From Deltaproteobacteria bacterium (GTDB lineage Bacteria > Desulfobacterota > Binatia > Binatales > Binataceae), in the NCBI GenBank assembly GCA_021799495.1, contig JAJZAI010000031.1, positions 1 through 40,937 on the forward strand: a DNA stretch of 40,937 bases. Direction: 5' to 3'. Of the stretch, positions 33,022-37,555 are shown one piece after another. A model generated the notes under the pieces. That model was not told where the DNA came from. It did not search any database and was given only the letters and a program-made list of their open reading frames with translations. Position 1 is the stretch's first letter, and every line of letters starts with the position of its first letter. The translations under genes and the position numbers were made by a program.

Positions 33022-33777
33022 CTATTCTGCTTCGACCTCCTTGAGCGAGGCGGCCCGTCGCTGCATGTAGCCGTCCTGCACCGCGCCGTACAGGTCGATC
33101 GCGTACCGATCGACCTCTTCAAACAGGTTCAGGTGCAGCGATCGATAGTTGATCGCCGGCAAAACCGTATTTCCGGCGCCCGCCGGCAGCCAGATGTACC
33201 ACGGGACGAAATACGACAGCGGAAACATCGCGCCGTCCGCCGCGATGCCGACGGTATCGCGAATGGTCGAAGGTCCAAGGAACGGCCACACGACATACGG
33301 ACCCGTCGGCACGCCGTAATAGCCGAGCGTCAGGCCAAAGTCGTCGTCGTGCTTTTTGAGGCCGAACCAGTCGTCGGCCACGTCGAAGAAACCGCCAACC
33401 CCTAGGGTGGTGTTGATTCCGAATCGGGCCAGTTCGCCGCCGGCGTTGGCGACGTGCAACTGGGCGAGATTGTTGACCATCCGCGGGATGAAATTGACGT
33501 TTGAAAAGAAGTTGCCGACGCTCACGCGCACCGGACGCGGCGCAATCGCGGCATAACCGCTCGCCACCGGATGCATGATGTACTTGTCGAGCTTCAGGTT
33601 GAACCAGAACATCTTTTCGTTGAACGGCGCGAGCGGGTCGCCGTAGGGCTGCGCATACTCGCCTGGAGGACCGGGCGGAGGCGGAGCCTGGTCGGCGCTG
33701 AACGCCGGCGCCGCCGCCATCGCGAGGAACAGCGCCGCCGCCACGATAATGATCTTCTTCAAAATCAGCCCTCCCAT
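33022..33777 (-). CDS. mlaA: MlaA/VacJ-family outer-membrane phospholipid removal protein
   Basis: MlaA forms an outer-membrane ring that removes surface phospholipids and hands them to MlaC. The 251-residue product has a signal peptide (LKKIIIVAAALFLAMAAA, cleavage after about residue 28 at AFSA), then DPLAPFNEKMFWFNLKLDKY, FFSNVNFIPRMVNNLAQ, RFGINTTLGVGGFFDVADDW, KHDDDFGLTLGYYGVPTGPY and VVWPFLGPSTIRDTVG, the VacJ hallmark blocks. Unlike E. coli MlaA it has no lipobox cysteine. The ATG at 33777 has CGGAG just upstream; a GTG 33 bases earlier is open. A 118-base gap separates it from mlaC. Confidence 0.94.
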   Translation of the reverse strand: MGGLILKKIIIVAAALFLAMAAAPAFSADQAPPPPGPPGEYAQPYGDPLAPFNEKMFWFNLKLDKYIMHPVASGYAAIAPRPVRVSVGNFFSNVNFIPRMVNNLAQLHVANAGGELARFGINTTLGVGGFFDVADDWFGLKKHDDDFGLTLGYYGVPTGPYVVWPFLGPSTIRDTVGIAADGAMFPLSYFVPWYIWLPAGAGNTVLPAINYRSLHLNLFEEVDRYAIDLYGAVQDGYMQRRAASLKEVEAE

Positions 33778-33895
33778 TCCACTCCGTTTTCCAAGCCACG
33801 CTTGCACCACTGATTATCTGCCCTTCGCATCCGTGAAGGAAACGCCGCGATTCACAACAGTCATCCTATCGGACGTTTACGGGAACAATTTACAG

Positions 33896-34621
33896 CTAAT
33901 TCGCTCCACCGAGCAACGACGCCAGCTCCTGCTGCTTCGATCGCAGATCGGCCATCAGCTTGTCGAAGCCCTGATCGTTGATCACGCGGTTAAACTGATT
34001 GCGATAATTGGCGATGATGCTGATCGCGTCCACGGTGACGTCGTAGATCTTCCACGCGCCGTCCTGCTGCAGCATCAGATAGTTCACCGCGATCGGATTT
34101 TTGCCCGGCTCGATGATGTTGGTGTTGATCTGGACGTATCCCGGCGCCAACTGCGATTGGCCAACGAATTCGACTTTTTGGCCCGAATAATCCTGAATCT
34201 TGCTCAGGTAGGCGTCTTCGATGAACGCGGTGAAAAGATGCGTGAAGTCCTGCCGCTGGGCGGGCGTCAGGCTGCGCCAATGATAACCCAGCGCGGACCG
34301 CGACATCTCGGTGAAATCGAAGTTGTTCTCGATCGCCTCGCGCAATTCCTTGCGGCGCTGAACGACCGGCATCGATTTGTTCGCGAGAATCGCGAGCGCA
34401 TGATCGACGGTCGCCTTCGCGACCGCCATCGGCGCGCCTCCGGTATCGGCGCGGGCGACGCCCTGCGCCCGTATCATGCCGAGCATCGCCACCGCCGCAA
34501 GCACCGCGGCGATTCGGCCCGCGGCCGCGCGGCGCGAGCGCGTCCGCGCAATTACCGGACGTTCGACCGCGAAAACGCCGTGGTTCATTATTGATAGTTT
34601 ACCGCTCATCACCTGCTTCAT
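33896..34621 (-). CDS. mlaC: periplasmic phospholipid-binding protein MlaC
   Basis: MlaC carries phospholipids through the periplasm between MlaA and MlaFED. The 241-residue product has an unusually long N-region followed by a signal helix GRIAAVLAAVAMLGMIRAQG with likely cleavage near residue 58 (ARA). The mature part shows RRKELREAIENNFDFTEMSR, LGYHWRSLTPAQRQDFTHLF, DYSGQKVEF, NYLMLQQDGAWKIYDVTVDA, and SIIANYRNQFNRVI, the MlaC/Ttg2D pattern. The ATG at 34621 overlaps the mlaD stop by four bases. Later in-frame ATGs at residues 5 and 12 would shorten the N-region. Confidence 0.94.
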   Translation of the reverse strand: MKQVMSGKLSIMNHGVFAVERPVIARTRSRRAAAGRIAAVLAAVAMLGMIRAQGVARADTGGAPMAVAKATVDHALAILANKSMPVVQRRKELREAIENNFDFTEMSRSALGYHWRSLTPAQRQDFTHLFTAFIEDAYLSKIQDYSGQKVEFVGQSQLAPGYVQINTNIIEPGKNPIAVNYLMLQQDGAWKIYDVTVDAISIIANYRNQFNRVINDQGFDKLMADLRSKQQELASLLGGAN

Positions 34622-35085
34622 TTCCCGCCGCCGCTTTTGCCGCCCGAGCCGGCATTGTTGATAAACGAGCCAATCGCGTTCTCGAGCACGAAGGCCGATT
34701 GGGTTTGCCGAATCGTTCCGCCCTCTTTCAGGTTTTCGCCCGCACCGAGCGCGATCGACACATATTTGTCGCCGATCAATCCGCTGGTCAGGATCGACGC
34801 GATCGCTTCGCTGTCAACGTCCACGCCCCGCCAGATGAACAACCCCACATGCGCGCGATTATCCTGCAAGCCGATCGCCGTCACCCGGCCCACCTTGACG
34901 CCGGCGATCTCGACATTGTCCCCGGATTTCAAGCCCGCGATATTGTCGAAATTGGCGTATAGCGTATATCCCGGCCGCGGAAACAATTCGACATTTCCGA
35001 GCTTGACCGAAAGCACGATCAGCGCGCTGATGCCGATCAGCGCGAAGATTCCGACGATTAGCTGGGTGGTTCGACTCGCGTACAT
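34618..35085 (-). CDS. mlaD: MCE-domain membrane protein MlaD
   Basis: MlaD forms a hexameric MCE ring on the periplasmic side of the MlaFED transporter. The 155-residue product has one transmembrane helix at about residues 8-27, then the MCE domain GYTLYANFDNIAGLKSGDNV followed by EIAGVKVGRVTAIGL, and a Gly/Ser/Lys tail. SILTSGLIGDKYVSIALGAG is the conserved end of the domain. It is slightly shorter than the E. coli protein. It overlaps mlaC by four bases and starts eight bases after mlaF. Confidence 0.95.
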   Translation of the reverse strand: MYASRTTQLIVGIFALIGISALIVLSVKLGNVELFPRPGYTLYANFDNIAGLKSGDNVEIAGVKVGRVTAIGLQDNRAHVGLFIWRGVDVDSEAIASILTSGLIGDKYVSIALGAGENLKEGGTIRQTQSAFVLENAIGSFINNAGSGGKSGGGK

Positions 35086-35093
35086 TTCACACT

Positions 35094-35894
35094 CTATCGG
35101 GCCGCGGCCGCCAGCGGTTCGTCGATTCCCGAAGCGCGGCCGGCAAGGAAGAGTTCGAAGTTTTCATTGTTGGCCGCCCGCACCTCCGCAACCGTGCCAT
35201 TGAGCGCCATGCGTCCCTGATGCATAAACGCTATCCGATCGGAAAATTCAAACACCGCCGGCACGTCGTGGCTGACCATCACCGCGGTCAGGCCAAACTG
35301 CCGCTGCGTGCCGCGGACCAGCTCGTGAATCTGATGGGTGCGAGTCGGATCGAGTCCGGTGGTCGGCTCGTCGAGCATCAGGATTTTCGGCCGCCGGATC
35401 AACGCGCGCGCCAGCGCGGCCCGTTTCTGCATGCCGCCGCTCATCTCGGAAGGAAATTTCCGCTCCATTCCTTTGAGACCGACGGCGGCCAGGACTTCCC
35501 CGACCCGATCGGCGATTTCCGGTTTGCCCATCCGGGTCAACTCGACCAGCGGAAACGCCACGTTGTCGAAAACGGTCATCGAATCGAACAAGGCGCCCGC
35601 CTGGAAGAGCATCCCGAACTTTTCCCGCACGTCGTTTTGCAAACGGCCGCCCAGCGCGGTCACGTCCACGCCGTCAATTACGATCGTTCCGGAATCGGGC
35701 CGCAGCAGCAGGTTGAGATGCTTCAGCAAGACGGTTTTGCCGCATCCGCTGGGACCGACGATCGTCGTGATCTGTCCGGTCGGACAATCGAGATTGACGC
35801 CGTTGAGCACCTGCTGCCGGCCAAAGCGGCGGCGCAGCTCGCGCACGCTGATGATTGCGCCGGGTGCGCCCGCGTTTTGATTCGTCGTCGCCAT
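35094..35894 (-). CDS. mlaF: ABC transporter ATPase MlaF
   Basis: MlaF powers lipid movement by the MlaFED complex at the inner membrane. The 266-residue product has the Walker A GPSGCGKT at 47-54, a Q-loop in REKFGMLFQAGALFDSMTVF, the signature MSGGMQKRAALARALIRRPK, Walker B ILMLDEPTTGLDP and the switch histidine in VMVSHDVPAVFEF. These features, with the phrase GALFDSMTVFDNVAFPL, are typical of the MCE-linked ATPases. It follows mlaE by 25 bases. Note that no MlaB (STAS) partner is encoded nearby. Confidence 0.96.
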   Translation of the reverse strand: MATTNQNAGAPGAIISVRELRRRFGRQQVLNGVNLDCPTGQITTIVGPSGCGKTVLLKHLNLLLRPDSGTIVIDGVDVTALGGRLQNDVREKFGMLFQAGALFDSMTVFDNVAFPLVELTRMGKPEIADRVGEVLAAVGLKGMERKFPSEMSGGMQKRAALARALIRRPKILMLDEPTTGLDPTRTHQIHELVRGTQRQFGLTAVMVSHDVPAVFEFSDRIAFMHQGRMALNGTVAEVRAANNENFELFLAGRASGIDEPLAAAAR

Positions 35895-35919
35895 CCGCGT
35901 CTATACGAACTCGGCAGTT

Positions 35920-36696
35920 TTACAGAAGCACGGAGGTCAGAAAATAGTCCCAGACCAGAATCAGCACGCTCGAGAGCACAACGGCCTCGGTGGTGGCGCG
36001 GCTGACGCCGGTCGCCATCCGTCGCGCGTTATAGCCCTTGTAGCAGCAGACCCACATCACGACCACGCCGAAAACCAGCGCTTTGTAAAGGCCGATCGCG
36101 ATGTCGTGAGGGCCCATGTTCTGCTTGATGCCGTTGAAGAAGGGGCCGTTCGGCGCGCCCATCAGACCGACGCCCACCGCCCATCCGCCCCAGATGCCGA
36201 TCACGTCGAACAGGCCGGTAAGCAGCGGAAAGCTGACGATTCCCGCCAGCACCCGCGGCGAGACCAGATACTGGACCGGATTGATCGCCATCACGCTCAG
36301 CGCGTCGATTTGTTCCGTGGCCTGCATCGAGCCCAACTCCGCGGCCATCGCCGAACCGGCCCGCGCGGTGACCATCAACGCCGCCAGCACGGGACCCAGC
36401 TCCCGCACCAGCACCAGCGCGACGACCGTGCCGAGCGCGCCTTCGGAGCCGAAACGGCTCAGGGTGTTGTAGCCCTGCAAACCCAGCACCATCCCGGTGA
36501 ACAGGCCGATCAGGCCGACGAGAAAGAACGATTCGGCCCCGATCGAACGCAGTTGGCGAATCGCAAGCCGGGGCTTGTACGGCGGCGCCGCAAGGTAAAA
36601 CAGCGCTTCGGCAAGGAAGATGACAAACGCTCCGAGCGCCGCCACACGGTCAATCACAAAAGCGCCAAGGCGCTCAATCATCGCCACAATAGACAC
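35920..36696 (-). CDS. mlaE: ABC transporter permease MlaE, GTG start
   Basis: MlaE is the membrane permease of the MlaFED transporter. The 258-residue product has GLFTGMVLGLQGYNTLSRFG, then the family hallmark ALVLVRELGPVLAALMVTAR, AGSAMAAELGSMQATEQIDA, and MAINPVQYLVSPRVLAGIVS, with about five hydrophobic segments across the length. The GTG at 36696 has AAAAGGCGG upstream; an ATG five codons later is an alternative. It starts 13 bases after cofC, so cofC and the mla genes appear to form one transcript. Confidence 0.95.
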   Translation of the reverse strand: MSIVAMIERLGAFVIDRVAALGAFVIFLAEALFYLAAPPYKPRLAIRQLRSIGAESFFLVGLIGLFTGMVLGLQGYNTLSRFGSEGALGTVVALVLVRELGPVLAALMVTARAGSAMAAELGSMQATEQIDALSVMAINPVQYLVSPRVLAGIVSFPLLTGLFDVIGIWGGWAVGVGLMGAPNGPFFNGIKQNMGPHDIAIGLYKALVFGVVVMWVCCYKGYNARRMATGVSRATTEAVVLSSVLILVWDYFLTSVLL

Positions 36697-36709
36697 CGCA
36701 TCCGCCTTT

Positions 36710-37354
36710 TCAATTGATCATACCGAGGCGCGCGATACGGCTGAAGGTGTGCGTCATACTCTGCGTGCGCGCGAACTCGATCAAATCCTCGGGCGCGTCG
36801 ATATCGATCGCGGGCCGCGGCATCGGCACGATCTCGCAGGCTATGCCGCGCGCGCGGCAGCTCTCGCGATGGCGCGCGAGGCTGAAGCGTCCAAAGCTGG
36901 TCGGAATCGCGGCGGGCGGACGGCGCACGATGATGTTGGTGCCCGAAAGATCGCGCGACGGAACCAGCGCCACCGCGCGCTCGGCCGCCGGCAGCGCCGC
37001 GAAGGCGTCGTCAACGTCGCCCGGCGTGATCAGCGGACAGTCGGAAAGCAGCGTGCACAATTCGGTCGCGCCCATCCCGGTCAACGCGTCCGCCCCGATG
37101 CCCGCAGCGACATTGAGGCCGCGCGGAAATCCTTCGTCGATCGCGATCGCGCCCTGCGCCCGGGCGAGCGCCAGCAATTTCGCATCGGAGGTGATCACAG
37201 CGACCGCGGCGGGAGCGCGCGCGCCCAGCGCCGCCGCCAAAACGTCGCGATACATCGCTTCCGCCAACGCGGCGCGTTCCGCGTCCGGCAACGCCGGCGC
37301 CAGCCGCGTCTTGGCGAAGGCGAGCGCCTTCGCGGCGATCAGTACGGCGCGCAC
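36710..37354 (-). CDS. cofC: CofC-like nucleotidyltransferase (coenzyme F420 biosynthesis type)
   Basis: The 214-residue product starts (M)RAVLIAAKALAFAKTRLAPA, the family N-terminus of CofC (2-phospho-L-lactate or phosphoenolpyruvate guanylyltransferase), with the nucleotide-binding lysine region AKTRL. LLSDCPLITPGDVDDAF is the metal-binding segment and ALVPSRDLSGTNIIVRRPPA plus AIDIDAPEDLIEF are typical of the family. The frame is open upstream, but homology starts here. The GTG lies where transcription from the promoter at 37362-37390 should begin. It is first in the mla operon. A generic MobA-like nucleotidyltransferase is the alternative. Confidence 0.78.
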   Translation of the reverse strand: MRAVLIAAKALAFAKTRLAPALPDAERAALAEAMYRDVLAAALGARAPAAVAVITSDAKLLALARAQGAIAIDEGFPRGLNVAAGIGADALTGMGATELCTLLSDCPLITPGDVDDAFAALPAAERAVALVPSRDLSGTNIIVRRPPAAIPTSFGRFSLARHRESCRARGIACEIVPMPRPAIDIDAPEDLIEFARTQSMTHTFSRIARLGMIN

Positions 37355-37361
37355 GGCGATT

Positions 37362-37390
37362 CTTATAGCCCATGCATATGCCGTCGCCAA
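37362..37390 (-). promoter_or_regulatory. promoter of cofC-mla, apparently giving a leaderless message
   Basis: On the minus strand TTGGCG (37390-37385) is followed after 17 bases by TATAAG (37367-37362). Seven bases further on is the GTG of cofC at 37354, which is where a sigma70 start would fall. The -10 matches five of six consensus positions and the -35 four of six. No Shine-Dalgarno sequence precedes the GTG. Confidence 0.6.
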
Positions 37391-37414
37391 CCGCAGATCG
37401 CGGCCGGGCGCGGC

Positions 37415-37443
37415 TTGACAGATCGCGCGGGCCGGCGAAAAAT
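37415..37443 (+). promoter_or_regulatory. candidate promoter of the TPR-SH3 lipoprotein gene
   Basis: TTGACA (37415-37420), a perfect -35 match, is followed after 17 bases by AAAAAT (37438-37443), four of six matches to the -10 consensus. The predicted start lies about 105 bases before the ATG at 37556. It is divergent from the cofC promoter, with the two -35 boxes 24 bases apart. Confidence 0.5.
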
Positions 37444-37555
37444 CCTTGATGCCGCCTGAGTGGTTGGTGGGGGATAGCCTCTGGCGGCCGTGCTCGTTTG
37501 CAAGAACGCCCAAAAACCATTTCGACGTCCTGAAGCCAAACAAAGGAGTCCGCTC

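Follow-up and report, generated by a model that had tools for sequence, protein, structure and literature searches.

The window analysed here, a 40,937-nucleotide (nt) stretch of contig JAJZAI010000031.1 (assembly GCA_021799495.1) from a Deltaproteobacteria bacterium of the family Binataceae, class Binatia, carries a gene for CofC, an enzyme of coenzyme F420 synthesis, directly upstream of five genes for the Mla phospholipid transport proteins. The enzyme is very probably functional and inherited vertically; it is equally probable that its gene was relocated once, in the ancestor of the family, to the head of a cofC-mlaEFDCA unit, and that the two systems are joined by shared expression, not by chemistry. 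The cofC-mlaE arrangement is family-wide, not class-wide.

CofC joins guanosine monophosphate (GMP) to a phospho-acid, CofD passes the product to FO, and CofC activity depends on CofD, according to the available text of a review (PMC8498797). The Mla proteins move phospholipids between membranes, as stated in the available part of PMC10665443. The CofC/CofD chemistry has no need of Mla.

Organization of the locus

All five mla genes are on the same strand as cofC. The homologues of MlaE, MlaF, MlaD, MlaC and MlaA are found together, each passing a Pfam model:

36710..37354, minus strand: cofC, 214 amino acids (aa), GTG start; phospho-acid guanylyltransferase of F420 synthesis, from profile matches
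36697..36709, minus strand: cofC-mlaE spacer, 13 nt, with the Shine-Dalgarno-like AAAGGCGG, from the sequence
35920..36696, minus strand: mlaE, permease; PF02405 274 bits, TIGR00056 247 bits (cut-off 212)
35094..35894, minus strand: mlaF, ATPase; assigned from PF00005, a general ABC ATPase model only, and from its position in the operon
34618..35085, minus strand: mlaD, short single-MCE type; PF02470 63 bits, TIGR04430 131.6 bits (slightly under the cut-off of 135)
33896..34621, minus strand: mlaC, periplasmic carrier; PF05494 168 bits; 4-nt overlap with mlaD
33022..33810, minus strand: mlaA; PF04333 218 bits
32962..32992, minus strand: strong intrinsic terminator closing the operon; stem of 13 pairs followed by TTTTTG
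37355..37555, no strand: divergent intergenic region between cofC and a TPR/SH3 gene
37556 (likely ATG start; open reading frame listed from GTG 37490), plus strand: TPR/SH3 gene, divergent from cofC

The original prediction had placed cofC 13 nt from mlaE, followed by mlaF, mlaD, mlaC, mlaA and one terminator, and both coordinates and order are right. The terminator (32992-32962, minus strand) is real by its pattern; its stem is the longest among seven pattern matches in the region, where 5.7 +/- 2.4 are expected by chance. The genes lipA/lipB are convergent on mlaA. The promoter of the operon probably lies within the divergent intergenic region, in which a pattern scan found no sigma-70-like site upstream of cofC on the minus strand.

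Identity and active site of CofC

The protein is a genuine CofC by sequence criteria. It scores 136.2 bits with TIGR03552 (equivalog cut-off 105) and 71 bits with PF01983 (cut-off 22), and the next NCBIfam family, TIGR04282, reaches 29 bits for a cut-off of 134. A MobA-like identity, the alternative named in the original prediction, was rejected: NTP_transf_3 (PF12804) gives 20.1 bits, under its cut-off of 27, and TIGR04282 is likewise far under its own. Three solved structures match significantly (7p97, 6bwg and 2i5e), all of the CofC/FbiD type.

In FbiD, the residues contacting phosphoenolpyruvate (PEP) and Mg are K17, L92, D116, T148, G163, S166, D188 and D190, as given in the available parts of PMC6450877 and PMC8764529. 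Mapped through a phmmer alignment to 6bwg, these positions correspond to K9, L80, D105, T139, G155, S158, D184 and D186 of the window's CofC; all eight are kept. They are identical in 48 of 48 rows from the family (some genomes counted twice). Among all 70 CofC rows, five of the positions are invariant; the lysine is replaced by arginine in six, the leucine by glutamate in six and the glycine by glutamate in five.

The CofC type that uses 3-phosphoglycerate (3-PG) has a serine at the diagnostic position (S162 in Mycetohabitans), where FbiD has G163 and the window's CofC G155. Because of this glycine, the predicted substrate is PEP or 2-phospholactate, and a 3-PG-type enzyme is, on this sequence criterion, not favoured. 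The protein shares with the CofC/FbiD enzymes its sequence family, its length, the eight PEP/Mg positions and the presence of the partner genes cofD, cofE, cofG and cofH in the genome; its gene differs in leading an mla operon, away from the F420 genes.

The F420 pathway in the same genome

A PF01983 search of the genome, which is 98% complete, returned the window gene as its sole match, the only CofC detected. The other pathway genes, which the original prediction had suggested looking for elsewhere, are all present as a cluster (G000:C80:37315-41439) on a different contig, C80:

C80 37315-38526: cofG, 446 bits (NCBIfam cut-off 213)
C80 38460-39782: cofH, 452 bits (cut-off 374)
C80 39709-40674: cofD, 314 bits (cut-off 257)
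C80 40687-41439: cofE, 268 bits (cut-off 181)

With each gene above its cut-off, a missing F420 pathway is ruled out. A polyprenyl diphosphate synthase gene (L063:10450-11460) directly follows cofE, as it does in the three further family genomes read at this place (L137, L138, L139). The 3.4-Mb genome also has 71 matches to luciferase-like domains, 70 of them over the cut-off and several in tandem (e.g., C26, C55), which looks like a large number for this genome size. The luciferase-like family comprises F420-dependent and also flavin mononucleotide (FMN)-dependent enzymes.

Conservation within the family

A class-wide protein search of 148 genomes matched CofC in 117 (E <= 0.001) and MlaE in 146 (E <= 1e-20). 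Of the family's 41 genomes, 39 yielded a cofC, in every case co-oriented with mlaE and directly before it. For the other two, whose completeness is 83% and 53%, the matches listed do not include the orthologous mlaE. The pairing exceeds chance, and its occurrence in 39 genomes rules out that it is unique to the window's genome. The order cofC-mlaEFDCA, whose conservation had been proposed as a check, is also kept: among the 19 longer loci retrieved from the family, mlaF, mlaD and mlaA follow in all and mlaC in 18.

As a gene-order control in these 19 loci, a junction was counted as kept when the gap was under 700 nt. The cofC-mlaE junction is kept in 19/19, exactly like mlaE-mlaF (19/19); hence, cofC behaves as a member of the operon. 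The other junctions are kept in 16/18 (TPR-cofC), 11/18 (DLH-TPR) and 9/14 (mlaA-lipA). In a named genome collection, a scan brought up no close loci beyond L045 and L046, which share this gene order all the way from DLH to LipA.

Locations of cofC in other families and origin of the arrangement

Two different homes were found for the 78 cofC genes of other families. Near coaD lie 42 of them (families f2, f79, f83-f87 and f90) and beside cofE another 32 (f5, f88, f89, plus one gene in f81), a count that includes the cofC of G266, possibly on a foreign contig. The remaining four are undecided: three are incomplete or lie at the end of a contig, their coaD being on a different one, and for the fourth (G207) no coaD was found. 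In the 16 near-coaD loci read, cofC is divergent from rsmD-coaD, with a thiolase gene in between in the four f79 loci and an aminotransferase after coaD in most. The six beside-cofE loci read have the order cofG(-cofH)-cofD-cofC-cofE.

No mlaE was seen within 24 kb of these cofC genes on the same contig in the 70 of 78 genomes that could be checked among the matches listed; MlaE is on the cofC contig in seven of the 70, 24 kb or more away, and elsewhere on other contigs. The 22 other-family cofC loci read contain no mlaE match. In a sample of the phylum, 9 of 198 genomes matched, four of them outside the class, and no mlaE match was found in the loci fetched for those four, a weak test with flanks of only ~1.2-1.5 kb.

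In the family of the window, rsmD-coaD is present without cofC in 8/8 loci examined, including that of the window's own genome. A CofC tree of 58 rows groups the family's 36 rows in a single clade (99/97). Locations were assigned by family once the loci had been read; three states cannot be explained by fewer than two changes, and two are what this tree needs. Under the midpoint root of this tree, the rsmD-coaD site, the most widespread one, is probably the ancestral home of cofC. The gene would then have moved once, in the family's ancestor, leaving what was probably its place beside rsmD-coaD for one immediately upstream of mlaE. Landing before an expressed operon, it would have stayed as its first gene. 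The encoded CofC would use GTP to activate PEP or 2-phospholactate, thereby supplying CofD, which is encoded together with cofG, cofH and cofE on the other contig, and the Mla proteins would carry out ordinary phospholipid transport. What CofC and Mla would have in common is one promoter and one message. The spacers in the deepest branch of the family (G235, G242) measure 299 and 264 nt, a pattern that would agree with an insertion that was tightened only later; a second branch, however, has long spacers too.

Alternative explanations

Several points weigh against the reading of a single relocation followed by shared expression. The root of the tree is a midpoint and not inferred, which makes the direction of the move no more than probable. 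In 8 of the 78 other-family genomes, no MlaE place is among the matches listed, and MlaE paralogues near cofC could be missed. Selection for a link might also explain why the junction is kept as strictly as those inside the mla operon. Finally, a single transcript for cofC and mlaEFDCA is suggested by spacing and conservation, and the gap between cofC and mlaE in seven of the 39 genomes (156-329 nt, measured, like all these gaps, between match ends and not start codons) is long enough for a separate promoter.

Separate transcription of cofC and mlaE, with shared ancestry of the locus as the only link, would agree with these seven genomes, which include the deepest branch of the family. It is nevertheless unlikely: the two genes are co-oriented in 39/39 genomes, the spacer is 10-40 nt in most of the fetched family loci, and the lone promoter-like site at the cofC-mlaE junction overlaps the start of mlaE; in this region, such sites are about as frequent as chance would give (3 vs. 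1.3 +/- 1.1 expected).

Functional coupling is unlikely. It would mean a deliberate co-regulation of the maintenance of envelope lipids and the CofC/CofD step, which makes FO charged and non-diffusible, so that, for example, cofactor retention and the membrane barrier rise and fall together. The strict conservation of the junction and of the pairing speaks for it, as do the short gaps that dominate (19-58 nt in 32/39 genomes) and the negative charge supplied by the phospho-acid, which stops diffusion through membranes according to the available text of the review (PMC8498797). However, cofC near mlaE is not seen outside the family, even though other families have both genes, and the operon is without cofD, whose product CofC requires. 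Moreover, the TPR gene that diverges from cofC keeps its place almost as strictly as the operon genes do, so retention alone is not specific, which counts against coupling. In the literature searched, no paper contains both cofC and mlaE; one, on archaea and hydrocarbons, contains both Binatota and F420. A biochemical F420-Mla link is not supported, nor is it supported that the pairing, an unexpected link according to the original prediction, points to one: it was seen in only one family of the class, and cofC has two different homes in the others. The stronger form, in which one message ties F420 synthesis to envelope lipid homeostasis and one promoter handles both a leaky envelope and the loss of cofactor, is very unlikely; if true, the step from membrane-permeable FO to retained F420 would be set together with phospholipid retrieval in this family.

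It is very improbable that a CofC-fold nucleotidyltransferase was recruited to lipid or envelope chemistry with F420 synthesis lost. In favour of this are the position of the gene in an mla operon and the distance of its product from CofCs that have been studied (E = 1.3e-14 for the best match among solved structures). Against it, the score is above the equivalog cut-off, the eight FbiD positions are identical throughout the family rows, and no second CofC was detected in this genome, which carries cofG, cofH, cofD, cofE and the many luciferase-like domains.

Composition of the Mla operon

MlaE, MlaF, MlaD (short type), MlaC and MlaA are common to the window and Escherichia coli, where an mlaB-F operon is accompanied by a separate mlaA. 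The window differs from E. coli in its order E-F-D-C-A, in having mlaA inside the operon, cofC at its head and no mlaB found, and in an MlaA without a lipobox cysteine.

The original prediction had pointed to the missing MlaB and the included mlaA, and this description is correct for the window's genome: a search of it with PF13466, though not with PF01740, gave no free-standing MlaB-like STAS gene above the cut-off. The best PF13466 match has 19.9 bits (cut-off 29.2) and lies just upstream of an MlaE paralogue at C76, in a same-length open frame. As a remarkable trait, the arrangement does not stand. In other families, mlaA is inside the mla cluster in 12 of the 20 loci read, one of which is too short to tell, and MlaA, MlaB and MlaC are only sparsely distributed among diderms, according to the available part of PMC10665443. 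In view of this recurrence and sparse distribution, the mla arrangement of the window is not remarkable.

The translation of MlaA has no cysteine, hence no lipobox, and here the protein may be a secreted one that no lipid anchors. A crude motif scan gave no lipobox-like string in 28 of 31 MlaA from loci of the class (L064-L124). Among the NCBIfam matches of the window's MlaF, the MlaF model (PRK11831) ranks second, with a score under its cut-off. The top NCBIfam model for MlaC is HpnM, a hopanoid-associated membrane protein (119 bits, cut-off 160); the E. coli MlaC model gives 57 bits, also below its cut-off.

Related families without a detected CofC

In 21 genomes of five related families (one in f3, seven in f4, five in f80, six in f81 and two in f82: G253-G258, G092, G056, G259-G263, G264, G265, G267-G270, G271 and G272), cofH and cofE were matched, cofE in 21/21 and cofH over the cut-off in 20/21 (partial in G254). 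With the window's CofC as query, no match was obtained in any of them. PF01983 gives a weak match in seven; the three that were tested were rejected as CofC, being TIGR04282 proteins (175, 165 and 156 bits, cut-off 134) that reach 41-47 bits with the CofC model (cut-off 105). The cofGHDE set is complete in all eight loci read (L125-L131, L144). These clusters may reflect a pathway gap, a divergent CofC or a non-orthologous replacement.

A protein of ~225 aa with invariant CxxC and HxxH motifs is encoded beside cofG in six of these eight clusters, and in 0/10 clusters of CofC-bearing genomes:

L125:2757-3431
L127:2080-2751
L128:1943-2635
L144:2294-2977
L129:8811-9569
L131:8835-9782

The six proteins have no Pfam or NCBIfam match over the cut-off. 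A structural model has a mean predicted local distance difference test score (pLDDT) of 85.6, and a fold search with it gave nothing better than E = 0.07. As a general replacement for CofC, the protein is ruled out by its lack in the two f4 loci read.

Significance for F420 biosynthesis in the class

The separation of cofC from the rest of the F420 genes has a precedent in mycobacteria: the available part of PMC7253369 gives the Mycobacterium smegmatis locus tags MSMEG_2392 for fbiD, 1829 for fbiB and 1830 for fbiA. There, as in the window, the CofC-type gene is separated from the other F420 genes; unlike in the window, no mla genes are mentioned beside fbiD in that part of the source.

In the class studied here, cofC emerges as a mobile part of the F420 pathway, with three settled locations. 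Its absence from an F420 cluster therefore does not mean its absence from the genome, and in the families where no CofC was detected, another enzyme may perform the CofC step. Gene neighbourhood is here a poor guide to function, and annotators should not infer an F420-lipid pathway from it.

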